64,000 bases of DNA from Mesonia hippocampi (GTDB taxonomy: Bacteria; Bacteroidota; Bacteroidia; Flavobacteriales; Flavobacteriaceae): contig NZ_JACIFO010000010.1 in NCBI RefSeq assembly GCF_014197445.1, positions 1-64,000 on the forward strand, in the 5' to 3' direction. The translations under genes and the position numbers were made by a program. Below are positions 48,398-60,373 of this stretch, piece after piece. The number at the start of each line of letters is the position of its first letter. Position 1 is the stretch's first letter. The notes beneath the pieces were generated by a model. It made no database searches, was not told the origin of the DNA, and saw only the letters and a program-made list of their open reading frames with translations.

Positions 48398-48471
48398 GGT
48401 CGCGTAGCTCAGTTGGATAGAGCATCTGCCTTCTAAGCAGACGGTCACAGGTTCGAATCCTGTCGCGATCA
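48398..48471 (+). tRNA. tRNA-Arg (anticodon TCT)
   Basis: A 74-nt cloverleaf, acceptor GGTCGCG/CGCGATC, anticodon loop CTTCTAA, T arm CAGGTTCGAATCCTG. CCA is not encoded. It marks the left edge of the minus-strand defence-like island, but no second copy of its 3' end is seen downstream. Confidence 0.96.
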
Positions 48472-48473
48472 CT

Positions 48474-48602: not shown

Positions 48603-49163
48603 TTAAATAAATACAATTTCCCGATGTCTAATTAAATAATCGTCTTTTACTTTTTCAAAGTTTTTGTTTTGATAAGAAGTATTGATAAGTAATGGTTTTT
48701 CAGTAAATACAGAGTTTAAGAGTGTAAAGGTTACGTTGTCTATATCAAAACCACTAGAATCAAATTTATAAGTGCCGATGCATCCAGTAACTAGCTCTTT
48801 TAGGTAAATTCCTTTATCAAAAAAACTAATAGGAGTATTTAAATTTTCAACATTATATAAAGGGAAAAGAGTAGTAGAGTTTAGGAGTTCGTTAAACGGA
48901 ATTTTCGCTATTTTTTTTCTTTCAAACCAAATTTCAATTTTCCAAGGCGAGAGAGGAAGTAGCCCTCCAAATGAATCTACTATAAGATCATCTATCGATT
49001 GTACATCCGAATGTAATTTATAAAAAAAGTATGCGTCTAATAAAGCTTCTTTTAGAGGAAGCTTCATTTTAGCAGCAATTAATTTATAGATCTCTATTGA
49101 AGCTTTACTAGATTCTAAATAATGTACAAAACACCCTTCTCCAAATAATTTTAAAGTAATCAT
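48603..49163 (-). CDS. Unknown protein, island gene with WYL-type operator
   Basis: A 186-residue soluble protein with no domain I recognise and no membrane segment. It is a single gene. A degenerate copy of the island palindrome (TGTCGAAG and TGTCGTAG half-sites at 49211-49228) lies about 48 bp upstream of its start, which ties it to the WYL-regulated group. Function unknown. Confidence 0.65.
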   Translation of the reverse strand: MITLKLFGEGCFVHYLESSKASIEIYKLIAAKMKLPLKEALLDAYFFYKLHSDVQSIDDLIVDSFGGLLPLSPWKIEIWFERKKIAKIPFNELLNSTTLFPLYNVENLNTPISFFDKGIYLKELVTGCIGTYKFDSSGFDIDNVTFTLLNSVFTEKPLLINTSYQNKNFEKVKDDYLIRHREIVFI

Positions 49164-49207
49164 CTATTGAATTACATATATTTTTAACTGGGTAAATTAT
49201 AATGAAG

Positions 49208-49228
49208 CTATGTCGAAGTGTGTCGTAG
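49208..49228 (-). promoter_or_regulatory. WYL-type site 4 (degenerate), upstream of 48603-49163
   Basis: Two TGTCG half-sites, TGTCGAAG at 49211 and TGTCGTAG at 49221, 10 bp apart. The left half of the palindrome is poorly kept (ATGTCG against ATGACA in other sites). Distance to the start codon matches sites 1-3. Confidence 0.45.
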
Positions 49229-49248
49229 TAAAAAAAGAAATAAATATT

Positions 49249-49812
49249 TTAATGTTTGCATAAAATAGGAAAACCGTTTTTGGCTCTCCAAGCATTTTCT
49301 ATGGCGGTTCTACCAATGTTATCAAGAATTAAATTTCTAATAACGCTTTTATCTATTTCAGGGATATTTAGATTGTCAATCATTTCTGTAGTGAAATAAC
49401 GAACTGTTATAGTGTGATTTTGTAGAATAGGGTAGGCGTTAATTCCTAAAGCACCAGTACCATCATTTTGTAAGTAAAAATGATTTCGTAACCTACTTAC
49501 TATTTTTTTGGCGTGCCCGTTATAAAAGTATGTTTTATTGATTAACTCTTCATGGAAAATCTTTTTATTATTACCTGCTGTTTTATAGAATAAAGATCCT
49601 TTATTTTTCTGGTTTTCAGGATGTAGTTTTGATAAGTTAACAAGGTCTAAGTCAGTTTTTATCCAATACCAGCCTTCTACATTTTTTAAATTCCTTTTAG
49701 CCTTATTTATCAACCAATTTCGAGTGAATATTTCATCGGTGTAAATGTCTTTTTCAATAATAATTTCATTTACGTTATCATATATTGTTTTTGCAATTTT
49801 TGAAAGATTCAT
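49249..49812 (-). CDS. GIY-YIG-like protein in the WYL operon
   Basis: A 187-residue soluble protein with a pattern like GIY-YIG nucleases: GWYWI (47-51), then YFYNGHAKKIVSRLRNHF (95-112, in the place of the YIG strand with the R-x3-H helix), and a late IENAWRAKNGFPILCK (171-186) that could hold the catalytic Glu. The order fits but the match is distant, so this is a hypothesis. It is the last gene of the five-gene WYL operon, 1 bp after the WYL regulator. Confidence 0.6.
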   Translation of the reverse strand: MNLSKIAKTIYDNVNEIIIEKDIYTDEIFTRNWLINKAKRNLKNVEGWYWIKTDLDLVNLSKLHPENQKNKGSLFYKTAGNNKKIFHEELINKTYFYNGHAKKIVSRLRNHFYLQNDGTGALGINAYPILQNHTITVRYFTTEMIDNLNIPEIDKSVIRNLILDNIGRTAIENAWRAKNGFPILCKH

Positions 49813-49813
49813 A

Positions 49814-50719
49814 TTAGTTATAATTGTTAAGGGTTTTGGTTAAAACTTGTTTCATTTCATCTCTTAATGCTATAGGTTTTAAAACTTCTACTTGGTCAAT
49901 AAGCATTAAAAGGCGTTGTTTAAGTTCGTAGTTTATTTTTATCCAAAGTCTAATGGTTAACTCTTTATCATTATCAATGAGGATTTCTTGTGAGTGATGT
50001 AACGGTAGAGTTTTAATGTATTTACCTTGAAAAGGAGTAAATTTTAACACAACTTCTTGAATGTTTTCTTCAGGATAGATAACTCCAATTATTGAAGAAA
50101 ATAAACTTTGAGGATGAAGTTCTTGATTTCTAACAAACACTTCAGTTGTTAGTGTTAGGTTAGATATTCTATCAATACCAAATGTTCTAAAGTTAGTGTT
50201 GTCTTTTTCTTGTAAACCAATAACATACCAACGATTGAGGTATTCTTTGAGTAGGTACGGATAGAGCTTTCTTTCCTTGTAGTTACCTTGATCGAAGTTA
50301 TAGTGAGTAAACGTAACTACTTTTTGTTCTTTTATTGCTTGAAGTAATATTTTTAGATTGCTAATTCCTTTTAGGATACCATCATTATCAAAAGAGATGT
50401 ATTCAAGTGTTTTTTTACTGTCTTTAATACTTTCAGTAATTAATTCAGCAGTATTGGCAATTTCTAAGAAACGTAAAAAAGAATTGAACTGAATACTATT
50501 TTCTTTGTCAATAAAATATCCTTTTTTTTCTTGGTCATAAATTATTTCAATACCAAACTCATCTCTAATTTGTTCTATATTACGTTGCAACGTTCTTTTA
50601 GATATTTCAAATCCATGATCAAACAAATAGGTTTCAATTTCTTTAAGAGTAGGGTATAAGCCTCTATTAATTCTTTCAATAATTAACGTATAACGTTTTA
50701 TCGTTCCTTGTCTAGACAT
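49814..50719 (-). CDS. WYL-domain transcriptional regulator
   Basis: A 301-residue DNA-binding regulator. An N-terminal winged HTH (about 1-70: RGLYPTLKEIETYLFDHGFE, then SKRTLQRNIEQIRDEFGIEI) is followed by a WYL domain (about 120-215: LLKEYLNRWYVIGLQEKD) and a C-terminal WCX-type extension. WYL regulators of the BrxR/CapW kind control phage-defence operons by binding inverted repeats and sensing nucleic-acid ligands. It is the best candidate to bind the shared palindromes of this island. It lies between the GIY-YIG-like and HhH-like genes, with 1-bp gaps. Confidence 0.9.
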   Translation of the reverse strand: MSRQGTIKRYTLIIERINRGLYPTLKEIETYLFDHGFEISKRTLQRNIEQIRDEFGIEIIYDQEKKGYFIDKENSIQFNSFLRFLEIANTAELITESIKDSKKTLEYISFDNDGILKGISNLKILLQAIKEQKVVTFTHYNFDQGNYKERKLYPYLLKEYLNRWYVIGLQEKDNTNFRTFGIDRISNLTLTTEVFVRNQELHPQSLFSSIIGVIYPEENIQEVVLKFTPFQGKYIKTLPLHHSQEILIDNDKELTIRLWIKINYELKQRLLMLIDQVEVLKPIALRDEMKQVLTKTLNNYN

Positions 50720-50720
50720 T

Positions 50721-51452
50721 TTAATTGTAGATTTTTAAAAATTCTTCAGCTTTATTTTTTATAATATTTATAGTGTTAGAGGATTTATCTGTGTTTTTAA
50801 GTATCCAGTATTTGTTTTCATTCCATTTATGTTCACGTTTAAGACCAGTTCCTTTTTGAGTAATAAATCCCCAAAACCATAAATCATCCCATATCTCTAT
50901 TTCTAAGTTACTATAGTTGTATTCTTTTAATAACTTGTTGATTTTTGAGAAATTCCATTTTATTGTTGAATCTAGTTTATTAAAAATAGAAATTATAACA
51001 GCATCAACAGGTAAATAAAATTCATCATTTTTACCTATAATTTCTGGAACATCATTCCATATTTTTAGTGAATGATGATAGTTACCATTATGAAAATGAA
51101 AAATTGTTTTTACAAATAGAGCAGCTGTTTTTTCTCCCCAGCCATTTTGTGATTTTAGCCCAGTAAAAAGGTTTTTGAAGTTAGCTTCATCTTTCCCTGA
51201 AATAAACTTAACAAAATTTTCAAAGGACTTTAGTGAGTCAGAATTATTATACATTCTAATATAGAATTCAGATAAGTAGTTAATTTTTGGTTGACTTTGA
51301 GTATTCGCGATTTCATATAAAAGCGATATTATTTTTTCTTCAACATTAGAACTATTGGATATGATAGGTAAATAGCCTAATTCTTGAAATTTTTTGTTAT
51401 ATTCTCTATTGCTATCTAAGAATTTATGAAGCTTTATTAATTTATCTATCAT
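50721..51452 (-). CDS. Helix-hairpin-helix (HhH-GPD glycosylase-like) protein
   Basis: A 243-residue soluble protein. NGWGEKTAALF (103-113) resembles the helix-hairpin-helix of base-excision DNA glycosylases (consensus LPGVGxKTA). LPVDAVIISIF (147-157) stands where those enzymes have the catalytic-Asp motif VDTHVxR; the Asp is kept. WDDLWFWGF near 188-196 resembles the end of AGOG-type 8-oxoguanine glycosylases. No Fe-S cysteines are seen. The assignment is my own from motif order. It overlaps the esterase gene by 4 bp. Confidence 0.55.
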   Translation of the reverse strand: MIDKLIKLHKFLDSNREYNKKFQELGYLPIISNSSNVEEKIISLLYEIANTQSQPKINYLSEFYIRMYNNSDSLKSFENFVKFISGKDEANFKNLFTGLKSQNGWGEKTAALFVKTIFHFHNGNYHHSLKIWNDVPEIIGKNDEFYLPVDAVIISIFNKLDSTIKWNFSKINKLLKEYNYSNLEIEIWDDLWFWGFITQKGTGLKREHKWNENKYWILKNTDKSSNTINIIKNKAEEFLKIYN

Positions 51453-52012
51453 TGCTTTTTGTTTAAATGTTTTACTACTAAAGATATATCTTGAAATCGG
51501 TGATCTTGTTGTTCTTTGAAAATATTTAGCGGTTTTTGTAAAGATAATAAGTCGTTTGTAAATTCTTTATAATCTAAAACTTCGTCATTAGTTCCGATAT
51601 AGAAATTAATTACAGCTAAGGGTACATTTTTAATCTCAGGTTGAACCTCTTTTAACCCTTCTATAAATTCTTTATTTACTTTAAATTTTTCAGATGTTTT
51701 AAAGTTTTCTAAAGTTTCACCTAGATGTTTTTTTAACGTGATATATGGCTTATACGATGGATTTATTAAATAGTAATCTTTCTGTTTGAAGAATTGCGAA
51801 AGTATTAGTCCGTAATATCCACCAAGAGAAGTTCCAATAATCGATTGTATGTTTTCTTTTTTAATTAAGTTTTCAAGCGTTAAAAGATCTTCTTTGACGT
51901 TGTTTTTTAACTGCGGACAAAATACTGTGTATCCTTCATTTTGAAGAGTTGTTACTTTTTTGCCTTTACCACTGTTAAATCCATGTATGTATAAAACATT
52001 ATTCAAAGCCAT
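51449..52012 (-). CDS. YqiA/YcfP-like alpha/beta-hydrolase
   Basis: A 187-residue hydrolase of the YqiA/YcfP esterase group. It has the opening LYIHGFNSGKGKK, nucleophile elbow GTSLGGYYGL, and late GTNDEVLDY and DHRFQD segments for Asp and His. I chose the start at 52012 (MALNNVLYIHGF) because the family begins there; a longer start at 52045 adds 11 residues and deeper overlap with the gene upstream. It overlaps the deoxyribonucleotidase gene by 14 bp, so it is translationally coupled to it. Confidence 0.85.
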   Translation of the reverse strand: MALNNVLYIHGFNSGKGKKVTTLQNEGYTVFCPQLKNNVKEDLLTLENLIKKENIQSIIGTSLGGYYGLILSQFFKQKDYYLINPSYKPYITLKKHLGETLENFKTSEKFKVNKEFIEGLKEVQPEIKNVPLAVINFYIGTNDEVLDYKEFTNDLLSLQKPLNIFKEQQDHRFQDISLVVKHLNKKQ

Positions 52013-52472
52013 CTTGAATGTTTTCTTTATTACATAAATAAGCAATTACATCTATCCAGTTTTTATGCTTGCTCTGTCCAAAATGGATATGCTCTCCTTT
52101 AAATTTATCAGCACCATTTGCAAGTCTATCATCTATTAAATAGTCTCCTGAATTTAAGTGTTTATTATGTGATAGAATAAGTCGTTTATATCCAACTTCA
52201 GGAAAATATTTTTGAATCCATAACAACTTATCACTCCAAGCAGAAGGATTTTCCCATGGGGCTGTTGAAAGAAAAAAGACGTCAAAATGTAGTGCTAAAA
52301 AGTTCACCGATTTAACAGCATCCAATTTTGGATTCATTAATGAAAAAATTCCAGGGATTTCATCTTCATTTCCTTGGTATTGTTCTAAAACTCCTTCCTC
52401 TATTTTAGGAAAAGCAGAAGGAAAGTCTACTACGACATTATCCATGTCTATAAAAATTATTTTTTTACTCAT
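51999..52472 (-). CDS. 5'(3')-deoxyribonucleotidase-like HAD phosphatase
   Basis: A 157-residue HAD-superfamily enzyme of the NT5C (5'(3')-deoxyribonucleotidase) group. Motif I is FIDMDNVVVDF (Asp9, Asp11), motif II lies in FFLSTAPWENPSAWSDKL, and motif IV is YLIDDRLANGADKF. The family dephosphorylates deoxyribonucleoside monophosphates, which could restrict or recycle the dNMP pool. It is the first gene of the WYL operon; palindrome site 1 is 35 bp upstream. Confidence 0.92.
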   Translation of the reverse strand: MSKKIIFIDMDNVVVDFPSAFPKIEEGVLEQYQGNEDEIPGIFSLMNPKLDAVKSVNFLALHFDVFFLSTAPWENPSAWSDKLLWIQKYFPEVGYKRLILSHNKHLNSGDYLIDDRLANGADKFKGEHIHFGQSKHKNWIDVIAYLCNKENIQDGFE

Positions 52473-52506
52473 TCTTAAATGTTTTAGTAAAATATATTAT
52501 GATGTA

Positions 52507-52525
52507 ACGACAAAGCATGTCGTAG
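52507..52525 (-). promoter_or_regulatory. WYL-type site 1, upstream of the WYL operon
   Basis: ACGACA-AAGCA-TGTCGT followed by AG: a perfect 6-bp inverted repeat with a 5-bp spacer, 35 bp upstream of the first gene of the operon that encodes the WYL regulator. It would mediate autoregulation. Confidence 0.7.
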
Positions 52526-52532
52526 AGAAATG

Positions 52533-54491
52533 TTAATTTATAACTTCTATAAAATACTCGTAAATCATTACCATAGCCAAGGTGTCAAGTTCACAATATT
52601 TTAAAAGTCCTTTTTTAATTTCGTTACGTTCTTTAATGCTCATTTCTTGATACTGTAACTTAGCGTAGGCTACTAAAGCAGCACCACCGTTAGCAATTTC
52701 ATCAAGTTCTGAAATAGTTTGCTCTAATTGCTCGTCTGTCCAATTATTAAAGAGAGGAGGAAGTATTTTATATGGATTGATTATTTGATTTTCTTCCATT
52801 TTTAAGAAGGTAAAATCATCTGGAAAATTTTTACTGGTTAGGTTAATGTCTTTAATAGGTTTACTGTACTTATTTTGTAAAAATGCACTAGAGTTTAAAG
52901 CAGCTGGTAAAACGCTTTTAATGGAGTTTGATCCTTTAGTATAAGGATCGTAGTAATAGTCTTTTACCACTTTCCATAAATCAATCATATCTCTTTCACC
53001 AGACCATGTAGATGAACTGTTTCCTGTGTTATGAGATATTGATTTAATAAATTCAAGTAATTCTTCTGTATCAGGTTCATTGCTATTTAAAAGTTGTTTG
53101 TAAATAGCATTAACTATAGTGTTTTCATGATTGTGGTATCTGAAAATACTTCCGTTATTACTTTCTAGAGATTTTTTTAAGGCTCTTATAAAATCAAAAT
53201 TAGGAAACTCTCCAGGTGAGGTGTTTAGGTATTCTGAATAATGTTCTATACGACCATCTTCATACACTATGTGATGTGAAAATTGAAAGGCAGTTTGCTC
53301 GTAAGGAGTTCTTCCTTTTGTGAAAGGAATTGCCACAGCAGAAGTTTCGAAATCAATGAAGTTTAAAGGGTACACCCAAGAATTTATTTCATCTCTTAAC
53401 CCTTCAATTTCTATGTATGGAGTAGTGTCATTATTGTTTTCTTTTTCTATTTGAATAAGTTGTCTTTCTGAAGTAGATATTTTTCCTGCTTCTAGCTTTA
53501 GACTCAAGTCATTTTCGGTAAGTTGATGCATAAAGAATTTTTCTTCTTCATTCATTAATTTTTTGCTACCTCTAAAATTATTTATTTCATAAGTCTTTGG
53601 ACTATCTATTTTAGTTTCAGAAAGATTTAATTGATGTGTCCAGCACTCATGAAAGCCACTTTTTTGAGATGGAGTAGGAGTAGTATGAAATTCACACCCT
53701 TTACAATGATGTCCAATGGGAGTGAAAATTTTTATATCCATTTTATAATGATGTAAATAAAAATTTACTAGCTCTTCAAAAGACTTATCTAGATTTAGTG
53801 GATTATTTGTATGAATGTGTTCAATCTCTTGATTAATATCTATATAAGCTAGTATAGGCTCACCTAAATCATCAATTGTTAAACTATCAGGTTTAATAAT
53901 TCCTGTTCTTAAATCTGAGTTTTGAGTAATTCTAAAAAGTTGGTTTAATCCATTAACGGAAGCTACTGCATCTTTATTTGCTAGGTTTAGTTCACATGAT
54001 ATTTTCCAGTCAGGATAGCAAAGTTGCATAACATATTTTTGAAATGCTACGTCGTATAAATAAGATGTCCAACCTCCCATTCCTCCATTTTTATTAAGAA
54101 AAGAGTTGTGACTAGTAGCGTTTATAGATTTAGCTTTTACTTCGATTAATCGAATGTTGTTTCCTTGTTTGTGTAAAATATCTACCCTAATAAATAGATC
54201 GTTTATTAAAAATGCAGCTTCAAAAATGGTAATATTTTCTTGTAGAAGTAACTCTTGAGTTTTATCTGCTAAACTTTGATAGTTCCAATCTTCACCTAAA
54301 ATAGCAATTCCATCAGGAAAATACATTCTAGCTAGCTCTTCTACTTGAAATCCACCTTGCGCCAAACTTTCTAAGAAAGGATCACTGTCTTGAGTGTTTT
54401 CATATTCACTTTTTTTTGTGTAATAAAGTTTGGTTGGACAATCTAAAGCCTGTTTAAATCTAGATTTTGTTAGTAGTCTTTGTTTTTTCAT
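52533..54491 (-). CDS. DUF2779 protein: Cas4-like nuclease fused to DEDD-type exonuclease-like domain
   Basis: A 652-residue protein. The N-terminal part (1-290) looks like a Cas4/RecB nuclease: Glu91 (IFEAAFL), Asp104 (FIRVDIL), Glu117-x-Lys119 (RLIEVKAKS), and four cysteines in the Cas4 iron-sulfur layout (Cys18, then Cys263, Cys266 and Cys283). The C-terminal DUF2779 part starts NFIDFETSAVAIPF (Asp380, Glu382), the first motif of DEDD 3'-5' exonucleases, with a late ELDTLAMVMIYEYF segment. It should process DNA ends. It is a single gene with palindrome site 2 upstream, so likely co-regulated with the WYL operon. Confidence 0.85.
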   Translation of the reverse strand: MKKQRLLTKSRFKQALDCPTKLYYTKKSEYENTQDSDPFLESLAQGGFQVEELARMYFPDGIAILGEDWNYQSLADKTQELLLQENITIFEAAFLINDLFIRVDILHKQGNNIRLIEVKAKSINATSHNSFLNKNGGMGGWTSYLYDVAFQKYVMQLCYPDWKISCELNLANKDAVASVNGLNQLFRITQNSDLRTGIIKPDSLTIDDLGEPILAYIDINQEIEHIHTNNPLNLDKSFEELVNFYLHHYKMDIKIFTPIGHHCKGCEFHTTPTPSQKSGFHECWTHQLNLSETKIDSPKTYEINNFRGSKKLMNEEEKFFMHQLTENDLSLKLEAGKISTSERQLIQIEKENNNDTTPYIEIEGLRDEINSWVYPLNFIDFETSAVAIPFTKGRTPYEQTAFQFSHHIVYEDGRIEHYSEYLNTSPGEFPNFDFIRALKKSLESNNGSIFRYHNHENTIVNAIYKQLLNSNEPDTEELLEFIKSISHNTGNSSSTWSGERDMIDLWKVVKDYYYDPYTKGSNSIKSVLPAALNSSAFLQNKYSKPIKDINLTSKNFPDDFTFLKMEENQIINPYKILPPLFNNWTDEQLEQTISELDEIANGGAALVAYAKLQYQEMSIKERNEIKKGLLKYCELDTLAMVMIYEYFIEVIN

Positions 54492-54531
54492 AGCAAGTAA
54501 AAATTTATGAGTACTAATTAAATTATTACTA

Positions 54532-54550
54532 ATGACAATCTATGTCGTAG
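54532..54550 (-). promoter_or_regulatory. WYL-type site 2, upstream of DUF2779 gene
   Basis: ATGACA-ATCTA-TGTCGT followed by AG, 41 bp upstream of the start codon, with the same spacing as site 1. Confidence 0.7.
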
Positions 54551-54728
54551 TTTCTTTATATTTTCATATAAATATGGAATTATATAATTCTATTTAAAAG
54601 AAAGTCTTTTCATAGTATCAAAAAATGCTTTATATAAAGCTCTCTACTTCATTTACCTAATTAATAGAAATTTTTAGATTTTTTAATTTTCTAAATAAGT
54701 ACTAGTTAGGTTTTCTATAGTTTATTTG
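54551..54728. other. AT-rich gap between DUF2779 and DUF262 genes
   Basis: No gene or strong hairpin is seen. It separates the WYL-linked DUF2779 gene from the 3' end of the DUF262 pair. Confidence 0.4.
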
Positions 54729-56642
54729 TTAGTTAGATTTTTCATAATTGAAGTTTACAAGTTTCGATTTCATCTCAAGTGTATGAGCTTTTATTTCTTT
54801 TTCTCCCCAATTATCAATATCGTCCATCATTAATTGTTGTTTCAAACTATCTGGTCCAACTTTTATGTAATAATCTTTTTTAGCAGAAGGTAAATGATTA
54901 CTCAATCTAGAGTTTTTACTACTGCTTATTAAGCATAAGTTTCCAAACAAATCGTATATAGATTTATCAATTGCATGCTCTTTTGAAATAGGGTTTTGAG
55001 GATAGTAATGCTCTACAGAACTCCTAAAAGTAAACTCAAAAGATGAAGAGCCGTTTACGTTTTCTTTCCATAAAATATAATCTAAATAATTGAAAACGAA
55101 GTTTTCAACAGCTGTTCCTCTATCTAATAAAGCTAATTCATAATTGTTATTTACTGTGATAGCATTATTTTTATATATTATGTCATAATAATCTACAGGC
55201 TCTCCCTTTATTATATATCTATCAAACAAATAAGCTTTGGATAAATTTTGTAAATACTCTATATAATCTTTTTCTACTATTTTATCCTTATTAAATAAAT
55301 AATTCAAACAAGCATTTAACCAATGTTTATAGACTAGAGTAGGTGTAGAAACATGAAACATTGAAACCAACATTATAAGTTCTTTATTTAAGGCTTCATC
55401 ATCAAAGCTATTTACATAACTTACTTTATTACCTGCATACCATTTTAGTTTTTTTAAACTCCATTGGTCTTTTTCTTTTATAAATTCTCTTTTAATTACA
55501 AATTGATCAAATAAGTGTTTAATCTTTAATAGACTAAAGCCAAAATCCTTAACGAATTCAATTTGTTTTTGTTTATCAGGATTTCTTAAATAAACATCAA
55601 ATACATCTATTAGTCTTTTATCATCTAATGGTACATTTGTTTTTGTTTGAATTCGTAAAACGTGAAGTAAAAAGTTTGAGAAGTTAATCACCGAGTTAAA
55701 ACGCTCTGGAGCATCTTCTTTTTCTTCCGTATTATGTTCAAACTTTCCTCTGTATGTAATTATTTCATCTATAGTAATTTTTTTCCTATCGTTTTCTTCT
55801 ATTTTATTTATTTGTAGCTCTGCTAATTCTTCTAATGAGGAAACCTTTAATTTATTCCAATTATTATATGTAAAGATTTTATCTCGTTGTGATGTGGTAA
55901 AGCCATATTGAACATAACGTTCCATATCTGAGCAAGCTTCCCATACTTGGTTAAAAGTTTTATTAAGTTTTTCATCATCTTTTAAAATCTCAAGCATATT
56001 AGCTTTTAATATTTCGTGTTTTTCTAATTGTTCGCCACGATTATTCATTATTTCAAAATAATGGTTTAAATCGGTTTCTTCTGGCACAGAAACCCTTACT
56101 AAACGAACATTTTTAGTAAGATAATTATAAAAAAGTGTTACCTTTTCTTCTGTATCTAAAAACCTATAAAGCACTTTTTCAGCATCAAAATAACGCTGCT
56201 TTATATTTGTGTTGTAATCTTTATTAGCGATAAATGAAACTCTTGTACTTTGATGGTTGTTTATCACGTTTAAAGTATCTGTAGATTTTTTTCGGCTGTC
56301 AAAACTTAAATTTAACTGATATTTAATTTTATTTTCTATTTGGACATTAAATATTCGATGGATAGCATTAATTATAATATTTAAGGTTGTTAAACGTTGT
56401 TGTCCGTCTATGGTTTCGTAAATAACCTCACCCTCTGAATGACGTTCGTAAACAACCAAAGTACCTATATAATAATTTGTTTTAGCTTTTTCTTTATCAA
56501 ATGCATAATCAGAAATATCTTGAATTAATTGTGTTATTTCACCTAATCCCCAAGTATAATTTCTTTGATAAATAGGAATTACATAGACATCATTATTTTC
56601 AAATAATGATTGTACAGAAAAAGAAGGTATCTTGTTACTCAT
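54729..56642 (-). CDS. DUF262 + DUF1524 (GmrSD-type) protein
   Basis: A 637-residue protein with the two parts of type IV restriction enzymes of the GmrSD kind. The N-terminal DUF262 domain has IPIYQRNYTWGLGEI and the DGQQR motif (ETIDGQQRLTTL), a ParB/Srx-like nucleotide-hydrolysing fold. The C-terminal DUF1524 domain has the HNH-type motif EHYYPQNP followed by LFGNLCLISSSKNSRLSNH. GmrSD cuts DNA carrying modified bases such as glucosylated hydroxymethylcytosine. It overlaps the second DUF262 gene by 8 bp. Confidence 0.92.
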   Translation of the reverse strand: MSNKIPSFSVQSLFENNDVYVIPIYQRNYTWGLGEITQLIQDISDYAFDKEKAKTNYYIGTLVVYERHSEGEVIYETIDGQQRLTTLNIIINAIHRIFNVQIENKIKYQLNLSFDSRKKSTDTLNVINNHQSTRVSFIANKDYNTNIKQRYFDAEKVLYRFLDTEEKVTLFYNYLTKNVRLVRVSVPEETDLNHYFEIMNNRGEQLEKHEILKANMLEILKDDEKLNKTFNQVWEACSDMERYVQYGFTTSQRDKIFTYNNWNKLKVSSLEELAELQINKIEENDRKKITIDEIITYRGKFEHNTEEKEDAPERFNSVINFSNFLLHVLRIQTKTNVPLDDKRLIDVFDVYLRNPDKQKQIEFVKDFGFSLLKIKHLFDQFVIKREFIKEKDQWSLKKLKWYAGNKVSYVNSFDDEALNKELIMLVSMFHVSTPTLVYKHWLNACLNYLFNKDKIVEKDYIEYLQNLSKAYLFDRYIIKGEPVDYYDIIYKNNAITVNNNYELALLDRGTAVENFVFNYLDYILWKENVNGSSSFEFTFRSSVEHYYPQNPISKEHAIDKSIYDLFGNLCLISSSKNSRLSNHLPSAKKDYYIKVGPDSLKQQLMMDDIDNWGEKEIKAHTLEMKSKLVNFNYEKSN

Positions 56643-58008
56643 AGATATAGTTCATTTTAGAAAATAAGTTTTTAATAGCTTCTGTTTTATTTGAAGCTAT
56701 TAAATCATTTTGATTTAATATTTCCATTTTAATATTTAAAAAGTCAGATGGTTTTAAAGCTTCTTTTATTGTTTTAAAAACGAATGGATAATTTAGAGCA
56801 TAATTATCGATTGAAGCTAACTGTACACTATGATAGGTTAGACGAATACTATAAGCCCAAATAAAAATACGTTCAATAGCTCGTTCTATTTCGGCAACAC
56901 CAAACTTATCTATATAGAAAATTAAAGCGCAATCAAATAAATTACGGACATATTTATCGCCAGTTCTATTTCTACCTTCATATTTATCTAAAGTACTCAA
57001 AACCTCATAAGCAATACTATCTTCTTTTGCACTTATTTTTAAGTTTTCAATCACTTTAACATAATGATTAATCATTTCAAAAAAGCGCTTTCCATTTATA
57101 GTTACTTGATCTAATTGAAACGGATAGGTCATATTGTTTTTATCTATTCTTCTATTGAAGTCTTGATTGTAAGCTTCTACATAAAAATGACTTATTCGGT
57201 AAATACTTGCAAATGGAAAAGGTTCGTTTACACTTGGGCTAATACCTTTAAATACCTCTATATCGCCTTTTGTAAATTTCCTAGCAGATTTAGAATTTGC
57301 CCAATTTTTAATGCGATATAAATAATTGGCAAAGGTTCGTTTTAGCTGCTCTAATTCCATTTCTTCCCATTTATCTACTGTTTTTATACGTTCATCTTCT
57401 GAAGTGTTATCCATCATTTCACGTAAATGAAATGCTTTTAATAAATCGTGCGGAGCTAAATCTACCCCACGTGTGTTTTGAGAGTCGAAAAATTGAAAGG
57501 CTTCTGAGATATCATTTAATATCACCTTAACCACCTCGCAATGCTCGTAAAAAAAATATACGGTATCTACATCAAAGTCTGCTATTCTACGCTGAATTTC
57601 TAAATAGTTTTCTCTAATGTTATTTTTGCTTACTTGATTGGTAAAAGAAAGCTTTTGTGTAAGTTCTAAAGAGGGAATATTTAAATTAACATTTTTTAGT
57701 TTTTTTACTAAATCTACATTATTCTGTATAGCTAATCCAATAAGCAGTAAGGTTATAGTACGTTGCTGTCCATCTACAATATTTAGCTTATCATGTTCAT
57801 CTAAATGATATACAATAGTGCCTAAACGATAAGCGGGTTTTTGTTTAAAAAATAAAATATCATCTAATAACTGATTTACATTTTTACTAGACCATTTATA
57901 GGGACGTTGATAATTAGGGATTTCTAGATTAGTGGTGCTAAGTAGTTGTTTTACGGTAATAATATCAGGCTGTATTACTGAATCTTTTTTGGATGGATTT
58001 TTGGTCAT
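56635..58008 (-). CDS. DUF262 protein, partner of the DUF262-DUF1524 gene
   Basis: A 457-residue DUF262 protein with IPNYQRPYKWSSKNV and VDGQQRTITLLLIG, the nucleotide-hydrolysing motifs. No EHxxPQ nuclease motif is visible at its C-terminus, so it probably is a regulatory or sensing subunit. It is the first gene of the pair; the second begins inside its last codons. Two DUF262 proteins in tandem, one with and one without HNH, are seen in defence islands, and the pair is likely one complex. No WYL palindrome is seen upstream. Confidence 0.9.
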   Translation of the reverse strand: MTKNPSKKDSVIQPDIITVKQLLSTTNLEIPNYQRPYKWSSKNVNQLLDDILFFKQKPAYRLGTIVYHLDEHDKLNIVDGQQRTITLLLIGLAIQNNVDLVKKLKNVNLNIPSLELTQKLSFTNQVSKNNIRENYLEIQRRIADFDVDTVYFFYEHCEVVKVILNDISEAFQFFDSQNTRGVDLAPHDLLKAFHLREMMDNTSEDERIKTVDKWEEMELEQLKRTFANYLYRIKNWANSKSARKFTKGDIEVFKGISPSVNEPFPFASIYRISHFYVEAYNQDFNRRIDKNNMTYPFQLDQVTINGKRFFEMINHYVKVIENLKISAKEDSIAYEVLSTLDKYEGRNRTGDKYVRNLFDCALIFYIDKFGVAEIERAIERIFIWAYSIRLTYHSVQLASIDNYALNYPFVFKTIKEALKPSDFLNIKMEILNQNDLIASNKTEAIKNLFSKMNYIYE

Positions 58009-58066
58009 AATTCATTTACTTTTCTTTAACGGACATTTTTATTTTAATGATTGCCAAAATATTTAG

Positions 58067-58120
58067 TAGACTACTTTTATATTCTTACAGTGTTTTATTC
58101 ATTATGTGAGTAGTAGTCTA
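58067..58120. repeat. 9-bp inverted repeat upstream of DUF262 pair
   Basis: TAGACTACT (58067-58075) and AGTAGTCTA (58112-58120) are 36 bp apart in the gap between the DUF262 pair and the small acidic gene. Possible operator or weak terminator of the small gene. Confidence 0.4.
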
Positions 58121-58134
58121 AAAAATAAGAGAGC

Positions 58135-58449
58135 TTAATCGCTCCCATATATACTGTCAAAATTCATAGACTCTTCATCAAAATCGTCATCATGCCTGTC
58201 AGGAAACATTATATCTAAGGTAGCTTTTTCGTCGTAAAAATCATTAGCTTTTTTAAAACGTTTAATTCTTTTCTGAAGTTTCTCAAAAGCATTAAACTCA
58301 GGGCTATCAAAATCTCTTAAAAAATAATCTCGATCAGAAGAAAGTTGTTCTTCTAAGGCGTAAATTTTTTCTTCAAGTGTATCTTGATCTAACTCCTCTG
58401 CTTCATTTTCAATTTCTTCAAATTGATTTATATAATCTTGAATACTCAT
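58135..58449 (-). CDS. Small acidic coiled protein, WYL-type operator upstream
   Basis: A 104-residue very acidic, helical protein (many Glu/Asp, e.g. FEEIENEAEELDQDTLEEKI), with no known domain. It might mimic DNA or act as an inhibitor; its charge is the only clue. A perfect copy of the palindrome is 35 bp upstream, so it belongs to the same inferred regulon as DUF2779 and the WYL operon. Confidence 0.7.
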   Translation of the reverse strand: MSIQDYINQFEEIENEAEELDQDTLEEKIYALEEQLSSDRDYFLRDFDSPEFNAFEKLQKRIKRFKKANDFYDEKATLDIMFPDRHDDDFDEESMNFDSIYGSD

Positions 58450-58483
58450 TGTTTTATTTTAATAGGCAAAGTAAATGAAATAT

Positions 58484-58502
58484 ATGACAAGCTATGTCAC
58501 AG
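58484..58502 (-). promoter_or_regulatory. WYL-type site 3, upstream of the small acidic gene
   Basis: ATGACA-AGCTA-TGTCAC followed by AG: TGACA/TGTCA is a perfect inverted repeat with a 5-bp spacer, 35 bp before the start codon. Confidence 0.7.
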
Positions 58503-58673: not shown

Positions 58674-59651
58674 TTATAATATGATATTCCAATGAATGGA
58701 AGTTATTCTTTTCTGAATAAGGATTAAAGTATTTAATAATTCGTTTTCATCTGGAAAAGAGCCGTAAACCAAATTTTTAAAGTCTGATTCATATGTCACC
58801 TTTAAATCGCTCCATATTTTTTCAGGGTTTTTAAATATTAAAGAATTAAGAGGATGATTTTTCAACCATTCATTGTTGTTTTTAAAGCTTTCTACATCAT
58901 CTTGAGCAACCTTTAATAACATTTTGTCAAATTCTTCTGATTTAAAAAATGTGAGTAATTCTTCTTCAGAAAGAAGTTGGTTCAAGTCATATACGTGTCT
59001 AATTTTGTTCTTTAAATCTTTAATAGGGTTTTCTCCATATGAGAACCGAACTAAACTCATAATTTTTTCACAAATAGTTCTGCTTGGTTCTAAAACAAGT
59101 ACATTGAATGGTAATAAATCTTGTTCTTTAGCGATTTTAATTTGTTCATTGTTCATCATCATTTCACCTACAAAAGAGCAAACACTTTTAGTAGTATAGG
59201 GTTCAAAGTAACCAAGCCAAGTAGCTTCTACCGCAATAGCATCTCTTACTTGACCATAATTACCGTTAAATTCTTTACTGTATGAGTGTGCCGTTTTACG
59301 ATTCATTCCCATCTTGTGAGTTAAACCTGCTATTTCTATTTCTGGCAGTACATTATTCACTACATTACTAATTGTTCTTATTTTAGTAGTAAGTTTATTA
59401 TTTGATTCTCCTTCTCTTCTTAAGACGACTAGATCAATGTCTTCTGAAAATCTTTCAATTATGTTATAACATTTAGATAATGCTGTTCCGCCTTTAAAAA
59501 CAGTGTCTTTACCAATTTTATCGTTGAATATTGTAAAAAGAGCATATGTTACCCAATAGTCTTTTTCTACAAATATTGCTGGTATTTGCATTTGGTCAGA
59601 TGTAAACTGTATAGCTTGTCTAAATAGCTTTTTGTCTAGATGAAGTTTCAT
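58674..59651 (-). CDS. abiEii: AbiEii-like nucleotidyltransferase toxin
   Basis: A 325-residue nucleotidyltransferase of the AbiEii/AbiGii family. The signature is FKGGTALSKCYNIIERFSED (about 54-73) followed by IDLVVLR: the Gly-Gly-Thr/Ser loop and the Asp-x-Asp metal ligands. Toxins of this family add nucleotides to tRNA ends or otherwise block growth, giving abortive infection. The gene overlaps its antitoxin gene by 4 bp. Confidence 0.93.
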   Translation of the reverse strand: MKLHLDKKLFRQAIQFTSDQMQIPAIFVEKDYWVTYALFTIFNDKIGKDTVFKGGTALSKCYNIIERFSEDIDLVVLRREGESNNKLTTKIRTISNVVNNVLPEIEIAGLTHKMGMNRKTAHSYSKEFNGNYGQVRDAIAVEATWLGYFEPYTTKSVCSFVGEMMMNNEQIKIAKEQDLLPFNVLVLEPSRTICEKIMSLVRFSYGENPIKDLKNKIRHVYDLNQLLSEEELLTFFKSEEFDKMLLKVAQDDVESFKNNNEWLKNHPLNSLIFKNPEKIWSDLKVTYESDFKNLVYGSFPDENELLNTLILIQKRITSIHWNIIL

Positions 59652-60373
59652 ATAATATTCCAGTTAGAAGCGTTAGTTAATACTTTTTTTGCCCCAGAAA
59701 TCTCATATTTAGTAATTGGGTTTAGAGATTCTTTCAGGCTAATTGTTATTGATTTATTTTGTATTTCGTCTAATAATGCACCTAATAAAGCTCTTGTAGA
59801 TGGTGGGTATTTTAAAGCAAGCCGTGTTAATTCTTTTTTATCATCTAAACTTAATTCCCTAATTATTTCCAAAAATCTTAAACAAGATGTTTTTATGGTA
59901 GTGTCTGGTATTTTTTTTACATACTTAATTGAATCTAGAATCTGTAGCAGAGGAATATTTTTTTTGGTAATTATATTTTTTTGATTGATAAATGATATAG
60001 TGTAACGCTCTCGTTTGAATTTAGGGCGAGTTTGATTTTTTCCTATTTGTATTATGTTACTAACTTGAGTTGTTAACCCTAATTTATTATATATGCTATA
60101 GCCTGTTAGGTATCCAACCACCTTACCATCTTCATTTAGTAAGTCTTTAACTATTTGTTCTTGACTAGGCTGAAGAGTTCCGAAAGGGGTTTTTTCAGGT
60201 TTGAAATACTTTCCTTTTGATAATTTTTCAATTTTGCCTGAATTTACCATGCGATTTAAGGCTTTGATGATTGCTTCTTTTTTGTTTACATCAACATCAA
60301 AGTCTTTATAAGTGAAAATATATCCTCTTGGAAGACGATCTATTGTGTTTCTTATGTGTTCAGTTACTTTCAA
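59648..60373 (-). CDS. abiEi: AbiEi-like antitoxin (DUF6088)
   Basis: A 241-residue DNA-binding antitoxin of the DUF6088/AbiEi kind. An N-terminal winged-HTH covers about 1-60 (DRLPRGYIFTYKDFDVDVNK, KEAIIKALNRMVNSGKIEKL, SKGKYFKPEK), then GYLTGYSIYNKLGLTTQVSN. AbiEi represses its own operon by binding inverted repeats; a fitting 11-bp inverted repeat lies 30 bp upstream. First gene of the pair. Confidence 0.92.
   Translation of the reverse strand: MKVTEHIRNTIDRLPRGYIFTYKDFDVDVNKKEAIIKALNRMVNSGKIEKLSKGKYFKPEKTPFGTLQPSQEQIVKDLLNEDGKVVGYLTGYSIYNKLGLTTQVSNIIQIGKNQTRPKFKRERYTISFINQKNIITKKNIPLLQILDSIKYVKKIPDTTIKTSCLRFLEIIRELSLDDKKELTRLALKYPPSTRALLGALLDEIQNKSITISLKESLNPITKYEISGAKKVLTNASNWNII

Follow-up and report, generated by a model that had tools for sequence, protein, structure and literature searches.

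A palindrome shared by promoters of a Mesonia hippocampi gene island points to control by a DriD-like WYL regulator

In the published accounts drawn on here, WYL proteins that regulate immune islands act as repressors, and those that act as activators regulate the DNA-damage response. DriD of Caulobacter crescentus is described as a WYL activator that is itself activated by single-stranded DNA (ssDNA) in a LexA-independent DNA-damage response; it is reported to target ATACGAC(X)7GTCGTAT, at sites that overlap -35 and keep a constant distance from -10 (PMC12340889). For PafBC of mycobacteria the reported motif is tTGTCRgtg-8 nt-TannnT, with TGTC 16 nt before TA (PMC5656591), and PafBC with ssDNA in its WYL domains is described as interposed between promoter DNA and the sigma domain responsible for -35 recognition (PMC11804915). 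BrxR and CapW are reported as WYL repressors of immune operons (BREX, CBASS) that bind inverted repeats downstream of or over -10; the BrxR repeat has a 5-bp spacer and occurs twice in a single island (PMC9122601, PMC9122588). Immune operons that respond to DNA damage via other regulators are also in print (PMC13373217). Here we analyse a 64,000-nucleotide stretch of Mesonia hippocampi (contig NZ_JACIFO010000010.1, positions 1 to 64,000; hereafter the window), which holds an island of minus-strand genes with a WYL regulator and three exact copies of one palindrome. On balance we favour the reading that an autoregulated, DriD-like WYL activator drives a local regulon of three promoters, namely those of the WYL operon, a DUF2779 gene and a gene for a small acidic protein. 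A sequence-only reading of the window had proposed a regulon under one WYL regulator and one palindrome; sequence comparison lends good support to such a regulator acting via this palindrome at more than one island promoter, because the site is linked to the WYL gene in relatives and is located in a single island in its own genome.

The sequence-only reading gave the palindrome to four units. Three of these (52472, 54491 and 58449) have exact sites 34, 40 and 34 bp upstream of their ATGs, whilst the element before the fourth (49163) does not rise above chance. The elements are as follows.

52507 to 52523, minus strand: operator 1, reading ACGACATGCTTTGTCGT on that strand, 34 bp before the ATG of the NT5C gene (52472), a perfect ACGAC-N7-GTCGT
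52489 to 52496, minus strand: -7-like box of operator 1, TATATTTT, at offset 10 as in relatives
54532 to 54548, minus strand: operator 2, ACGACATAGATTGTCAT, 40 bp before the DUF2779 ATG (54491), the expected offset showing no clear -7 box
58484 to 58500, minus strand: operator 3, GTGACATAGCTTGTCAT, 34 bp before the acidic-protein ATG (58449), with TTTG at offset 13 where 14 is usual
49210 to 49226, minus strand: possible degenerate operator, 46 bp before the ATG of a 186-aa orphan (49163), not above chance

Operator 1 agrees with the DriD core ACGAC-N7-GTCGT at 10/10 bases, operators 2 and 3 at eight (GTCAT, GTGAC) or fewer. When the window was scored with a weight matrix built solely from sites in other genomes, the three operators took the top three ranks, scoring 19.29, 12.61 and 7.76, for which 0, 0.35 and 2.3 are expected per resampled window; the third-ranked operator cannot stand on the matrix alone because 2.3 such scores are expected. 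The site at 49210 pairs a perfect half-site, ACGACA, with an imperfect one and came fifth, at 5.96, below a score with 7.6 expected per window. It was not accepted as a fourth operator because its matrix score is not above chance, and membership of the orphan unit in the regulon appears doubtful.

Promoter geometry was read from 31 sites, each oriented by the gene downstream of it (3 in the window, 28 in relatives) and hand-picked from loci known to have the site (L048_umuC and L048_8332 were left out). TTTG starts 14 bases after the 17-mer in 20/31, with no other offset seen more than twice, and TAnnTTT starts at offset 10 in 16/31. TAnnTTTG is described as the -7 box of Flavobacterium, at -12 to -5 (PMC9723704). 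Taken with the fixed TTTG offset, the position of this box would place the operators at about -39 to -23, covering the -33 region, with start sites inferred from sequence. None of the 31 sites has TTTG 17-23 nt before TA, the usual distance of the -33 TTTG. Moreover, the composite CGACA-N5-TGTCG-N11-TAnnTTTG matches in 57/395 genomes of the order, the mirrored control giving 0 in every row. It is present in 40/41 genomes of one genus, g49 (a tally of matching rows), and in 4 viral contigs, and has no match in the window's own genome. A clade WYL gene lies directly downstream in 5/30 loci returned; in L314 and L315 the composite site sits right behind one WYL gene and before the next gene.

The regulator gene itself was called correctly from sequence, its product matching WYL and WCX above the Pfam cut-off and HTH_11 only below it (0.043). 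The model of the protein (predicted local distance difference test, pLDDT, 74.8) has an N-terminal helix-turn-helix-like part. When a profile built from 19 operator-linked WYL proteins was searched against PDB, PafBC, PafB and DriD matched at 2.7e-14 to 1.4e-12, BrxR at 1.6e-5 and 2.2e-3, and CapW at 1.4e-3 and 7.4e-3. Foldseek on the model likewise found DriD best (2.8e-13), followed by PafBC (1.2e-12), CapW (3.8e-8) and BrxR (4.3e-8), with low whole-chain TM-scores (at most 0.46), and VIA-align gave Z 15.8 for the DriD C-domain (3.8 Å over 198 residues) and Z 11.8 for BrxR (8.9 Å over 216 residues). By sequence and predicted structure, the nearest relatives appear to be the DriD/PafB activators, above the BrxR/CapW repressors. 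Recognition-helix residues R42, T43 and R46 are invariant in 19/19 operator-linked WYL proteins; R42/R46 have the same residue spacing as R38/R42 of SiwR, whose R38A-R42A variant is reported to fail to bind its promoter motif (PMC10693628).

Activation by the WYL protein seems about twice as likely as repression because of the DriD target core, the fixed -7 spacing, the lack of TTTG at 17-23 nt and the nearest solved relatives, DriD/PafB. The sequence-only reading had pointed instead to BrxR/CapW-like repression, in which a WYL dimer on the palindromes would shut the three promoters until a phage-derived ligand releases it. This explanation has precedent, as the WYL regulators of immune operons so far studied in the accounts cited (BrxR, CapW) repress via inverted repeats; relatives lie close to defence genes, and a protein over -33 could block RNA polymerase. 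However, BrxR and CapW sites are not over -33, occlusion would not need the base-exact -7 spacing found at most sites, and both the nearest relatives and the target core belong to activators. We therefore consider repression the less likely mode, whilst it survives better than any other alternative.

For linkage of the site to the regulator we scanned 150 bp upstream of the clade WYL genes, a set of 27 from other genomes whose products match that of the window at E below 1e-30 (L034-L053, L082, L083, L084, L088, L089, L091 and L132). The set includes near-copies (L038/L041/L042; L048-L051; L044/L088; L040/L043), and our grouping of these leaves about 5 lineages for the strict motif and about 12 for the relaxed one. 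The strict motif, YGACA-N5-TGTCR as taken from the window, was found upstream of 10/27 genes, and of 0/27 when mirrored or when the spacer was set to 2-4 or 6-9. For the relaxed motif YGNCA-N5-TGNCR the count was 19/27, against 0.07 expected (one match also at a 3-bp spacer); this count is partly circular because the motif was defined after the upstream sequences had been viewed, which does not apply to the strict count. Beyond these 19, L082 and L084 have a strict site before the first gene of the WYL operon. Among 15 weaker WYL genes only L031 has a strict site, and it lies outside a well supported sister clade (14 rows in a tree of 47 WYL proteins) in which 0/14 upstream stretches have a strict or relaxed site. 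Site labels on the tree were set by hand, and since L031 and L130_10619 have a site and are unlabelled, its 7 changes are inexact. The 483,672 bp surrounding the 27 genes contain the strict 15-mer 15 times, with 13 copies lying outside open reading frames of at least 100 aa, and the mirrored form once. Two sites lie between divergent genes in L034, L044, L083, L091 and L132, and L048 and L049 have several sites, each before neighbouring genes; more than one promoter per locus is therefore usual in the family.

This linkage bears on a second alternative, that the palindrome is read by another regulator, for instance a LexA-like SOS repressor, with the WYL gene a mere passenger of the operon. 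Binding of the WYL protein to the operator is a prediction, and 6/27 clade WYL genes have no nearby site. Against this, the site tracks the WYL clade across genera and families, is absent at 14/14 sister-clade genes and is confined to the island in its own genome. The Bacteroidetes LexA motifs described, GGA-N5-TCC and CTAA-N5-TTAG (PMC8565304), differ from operators 1-3, by which we ruled out that the island is a LexA-like SOS regulon of that kind. Another reader of the site is thus very unlikely.

Within the window, RYGACA-N5-TGTCRY occurs exactly at 3 places, and still at 3 with one mismatch allowed, at which setting window shuffles gave a mean of 0.47 matches and reached 3 in 2/100. Genome-wide (2.59 Mb) the exact 17-mer pattern is found only at the three island places, all within 6 kb, and not at many unrelated genes, the outcome that had been named as fatal to the regulon. 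The mirrored control has 2 places, so the genome-wide count is near chance, and we rejected copy number as evidence by itself (3 vs 2; with two mismatches, 665 for the motif vs 1,467 for the control). The shorter YGACA-N5-TGTCR has one further copy, at C8:34425, among places with at most one mismatch to TGACA-N5-TGTCG in the genome. What is not chance-like is that all three copies stand at promoter positions within 6 kb. That three look-alike palindromes arose by chance in an AT-rich strip, as the control and shuffle counts might allow, is close to refuted, given that all lie 34-40 bp before start codons within 6 kb of 2.59 Mb and that independent genomes show the same site before the same regulator.

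Several points weigh against an activator-driven regulon. Within the window only operator 1 (1/3) has a -7-like box at the exact offset, and an operator over -33 would suit a repressor too. Assignment of the regulator class by similarity is not clean: in the profile search PafC, the partner subunit of an activator, scored 2.6e-4, no better than BrxR, and in VIA-align the RNA polymerase-bound DriD chains (Z 11.1 and 11.0; 11.8 Å over 252) rank under BrxR, by which domain arrangement is seen to blur the structural ranking. To these are added the clade WYL genes that have no nearby site. DNA-damage genes are not visible in the window, and UmuC has a site in only 2/30 loci examined. Among ten window proteins scanned, the regulated proteins other than WYL have no PADLOC match. 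Lastly, all the support is computational, drawn from sequence and predicted structure.

The genes under the operators, and the doubtful fourth unit, are listed here.

51999 to 52472, minus strand: NT5C-type 5'(3')-deoxyribonucleotidase (Pfam match, DMD motif), first gene of the WYL operon
51449 to 52012, minus strand: UPF0227 (YqiA-like) alpha/beta hydrolase (Pfam match, GTSLGG motif)
50721 to 51452, minus strand: 243-aa helix-hairpin-helix (HhH)-like protein (pattern GWGxKTA ... PVDAVI; no family match above threshold; poor model)
49814 to 50719, minus strand: WYL+WCX transcription regulator, DriD/PafB-like (Pfam; recognition-helix R42, T43, R46 invariant)
49249 to 49812, minus strand: p187, 187 aa, last gene of the WYL operon, GIY-YIG-like by eye only
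52533 to 54491, minus strand: DUF2779 protein, putative nuclease, single-gene unit (Pfam; four conserved Cys, PD-(D/E)XK-like and DEDD-like residues)
58135 to 58449, minus strand: acidic 104-aa protein (32 D+E, 12 K+R), a terminator-like hairpin after the gene
48603 to 49163, minus strand: 186-aa orphan, doubtful regulon member, preceded by the possible degenerate operator

The operon NT5C-UPF0227-HhH-WYL-p187 runs from 52472 down to 49249, its neighbouring genes overlapping or lying 1 bp apart. The sequence-only calls of a deoxyribonucleotidase, an esterase and a DUF2779 gene are borne out by Pfam matches (NT5C, UPF0227, DUF2779). Those of two other proteins fared less well. For the HhH-like protein the sequence pattern is present, and assignment by structure failed (model pLDDT 56.2, no family match above threshold); it has matches in 11/298 other genomes, one a fragment, and the 8 neighbourhoods fetched contain no clade WYL gene. 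GIY-YIG for p187 is not supported by any Pfam, PADLOC, NCBIfam or PHROG match, its similarity to a GIY-YIG-like protein of L083 being 23% over 82 residues (E 0.010). The acidic protein has no match in 59 other genomes and the orphan one weak match in 298.

The DUF2779 protein shares Cys 18, 263, 266 and 283, together with D104/E117/K119 and D380/E382/D504/D636, with 15/15 aligned relatives. We take these residues to be Cas4-like PD-(D/E)XK and DEDD exonuclease motifs. A survey of RNase H-like proteins lists the DUF2779 family among presumed 3'-5' exonucleases with a DUF83 domain (PMC3985635). Across 16 distinct loci with a near-full-length DUF2779 of at least 58% identity, a clade WYL gene is found in 10 and not in 6, within the stretches covered (L087 has only 770 bp on one side); fragments (L094, L096-L098, L100, L101), distant rows (L093, L095, L099) and additional copies from a genome already counted were left out. 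In 17 loci with DUF2779 under 58% the WYL neighbour is of another type in 3 and of the operator type in none; there is no strict site, and relaxed sites are at chance level, one lying 276 bp before DUF2779 in L135. UPF0227 follows WYL-DUF2779 in L034, L036 and L091. L035 has UPF0227 fused to a cREC domain, described as predicted cyclic-phosphate processing (PMC9503650), and an NT5C gene (54%) divergent from the WYL gene. The WYL-DUF2779-UPF0227 core thus recurs in some relatives, at times in defence surroundings, and the complete window gene set was not found in any relative compared; of the conservation on which the sequence-only reading was to be judged, the site and the core are seen and the full set is not. 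In L044 (2816-12088) a run of adjoining genes, WYL-PDDEXK_4-DUF2779-JetA-JetB-JetC, stands under two relaxed operators and has a divergent PifA-like gene next to it.

Other genes also share the site in relatives. A divergent gene (590-708 aa) opposite the WYL gene shares the site region in L034 (7316-9364), L083 (4902-7028), L091 (4869-6926) and L036 (7141-8913), the L034 copy having AAA-like and peptidase M41 domains. Confinement of the motif to the island holds for the window's own genome and not for genus g49, where sites precede other genes. In four g49 genomes the strict 17-mer occurs 5-10 times per genome, the mirror control 3-5 times. In g49 (L048, L049 and others) the site stands before the WYL gene, a UmuC-type polymerase, an M15 peptidase and a patatin-like gene, and also before copies of a family of about 550 aa with a C-terminal secretion tail. 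This set looks like an undescribed DriD-type regulon. The UmuC-type polymerase adjoins the WYL gene in L048 and L049; UmuC was dropped as a general target because of the low number of loci with its site.

The minus-strand strip lies to the right of a tRNA-Arg gene (48398-48472) and extends to about 61.2 kb in the window. A GmrSD-like pair (54729-58008) adjoins the regulated units, as do an AbiEii toxin and its DUF6088/AbiEi-like partner (58674-60373). These pairs are supporting evidence for a defence-type neighbourhood; PADLOC matched only the WYL protein and the GmrSD-like pair among the proteins scanned. The GmrSD-like pair was placed outside the regulon because a terminator-like hairpin (58146-58129) and a 126 bp gap follow the acidic-protein gene. 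The hairpin is weak, with 4 such hairpins vs 3.0 in shuffles; read-through from the acidic-protein unit into the pair was set aside only tentatively. An aldehyde dehydrogenase gene and tRNA-Arg stay together in 12/12 same-genus genomes fetched (of 15 others). On the other side of the tRNA no protein matches the window island at E 1e-10 in these 12; in 3/12 this side encodes efflux proteins with 21-24% identity to those located further to the right in the window's own contig, and in 1/12 there is a second dehydrogenase-like match. A second copy of the tRNA-Arg 3' end was looked for in the rest of the window and not found. With its constant left neighbour and variable right side, the tRNA-Arg gene is likely a variable insertion spot.

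In the mechanism that we favour, the WYL protein, DriD/PafB-like and probably homodimeric, would bind ACGAC-N7-GTCGT-type sites at about -39 to -23 in three target promoters that have no normally spaced -33 box. Its WYL domains would bind a nucleic-acid ligand, probably ssDNA, and this would most likely lead to activation; the ssDNA might come from damage, phage replication or incoming DNA. The five genes from NT5C to p187, the putative nuclease DUF2779 and the small acidic protein would then be switched on jointly, with positive feedback, since the WYL operon includes the regulator's own gene. The encoded proteins would act on DNA ends and on nucleotides, either as part of repair or to counter foreign DNA. 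By analogy with described systems, the gene set is probably switched on together upon DNA damage or invasion, and a defence role of the island is plausible.

More tentatively, and with somewhat less than an even chance in our estimate, DriD-type ssDNA-sensing WYL activators in Bacteroidota may carry their operators into patchy islands and induce nuclease immunity (the DUF2779 core, and L044 with Wadjet genes) by activation and positive feedback rather than derepression. If true, nuclease-based immune islands would answer directly to a DNA-damage signal. A conserved Bacteroidota promoter code with an activator's target and spacing in nuclease and defence-like islands would join the two classes of WYL regulator. 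With the composite promoter as a sequence rule, regulons of this kind can be sought using nothing but DNA sequence, and a simple reporter would suffice to test the inducing signal. In open-access literature listings we found no published account of DriD-type control of a patchy Bacteroidota nuclease island or of an order-wide promoter code.

Compared with known systems, the L044 run resembles Wadjet (JetABCD) in carrying JetA-JetB-JetC with WYL and DUF2779, whereas the ten window proteins scanned include no Jet match. The Bacteroidetes LexA-like SOS repressors share the phylum and the 5-bp-spacer palindrome; their half-sites (GGA/TCC, CTAA/TTAG) and protein family differ. BrxR and CapW are alike in that a WYL protein lies in a defence-like island with more than one site, as a 5-bp-spacer inverted repeat in the case of BrxR, and their hallmark of an inverted repeat near the regulator's own promoter is present here. 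They are unlike it in that their operators lie over or downstream of -10, whereas those of the window would lie upstream of the -7 box, going by inferred start sites, and in that their sequence and fold are further from the window protein than those of DriD/PafB. SiwR is described as a homodimeric WYL activator on a palindrome between -35 and -10 (PMC10693628). PafBC shares the WYL-WCX domains and the 16 nt from TGTC to the TA of the -10/-7 box, as at island-type operators, but is a heterodimer with a non-palindromic motif, another phylum and other targets. From DriD the window regulator differs in lying in a local island and in its own operon, and in having nuclease and nucleotide-enzyme genes as its presumed targets; a response to ssDNA is suggested here by analogy only. 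DriD is nonetheless the best structural match of the WYL model, and shares with it the helix-turn-helix-WYL-WCX architecture, the core ACGAC-N7-GTCGT and a fixed distance to the -10/-7 box, over -35/-33. DriD already provides the precedent for the class of regulator, the target and the geometry of the promoter.

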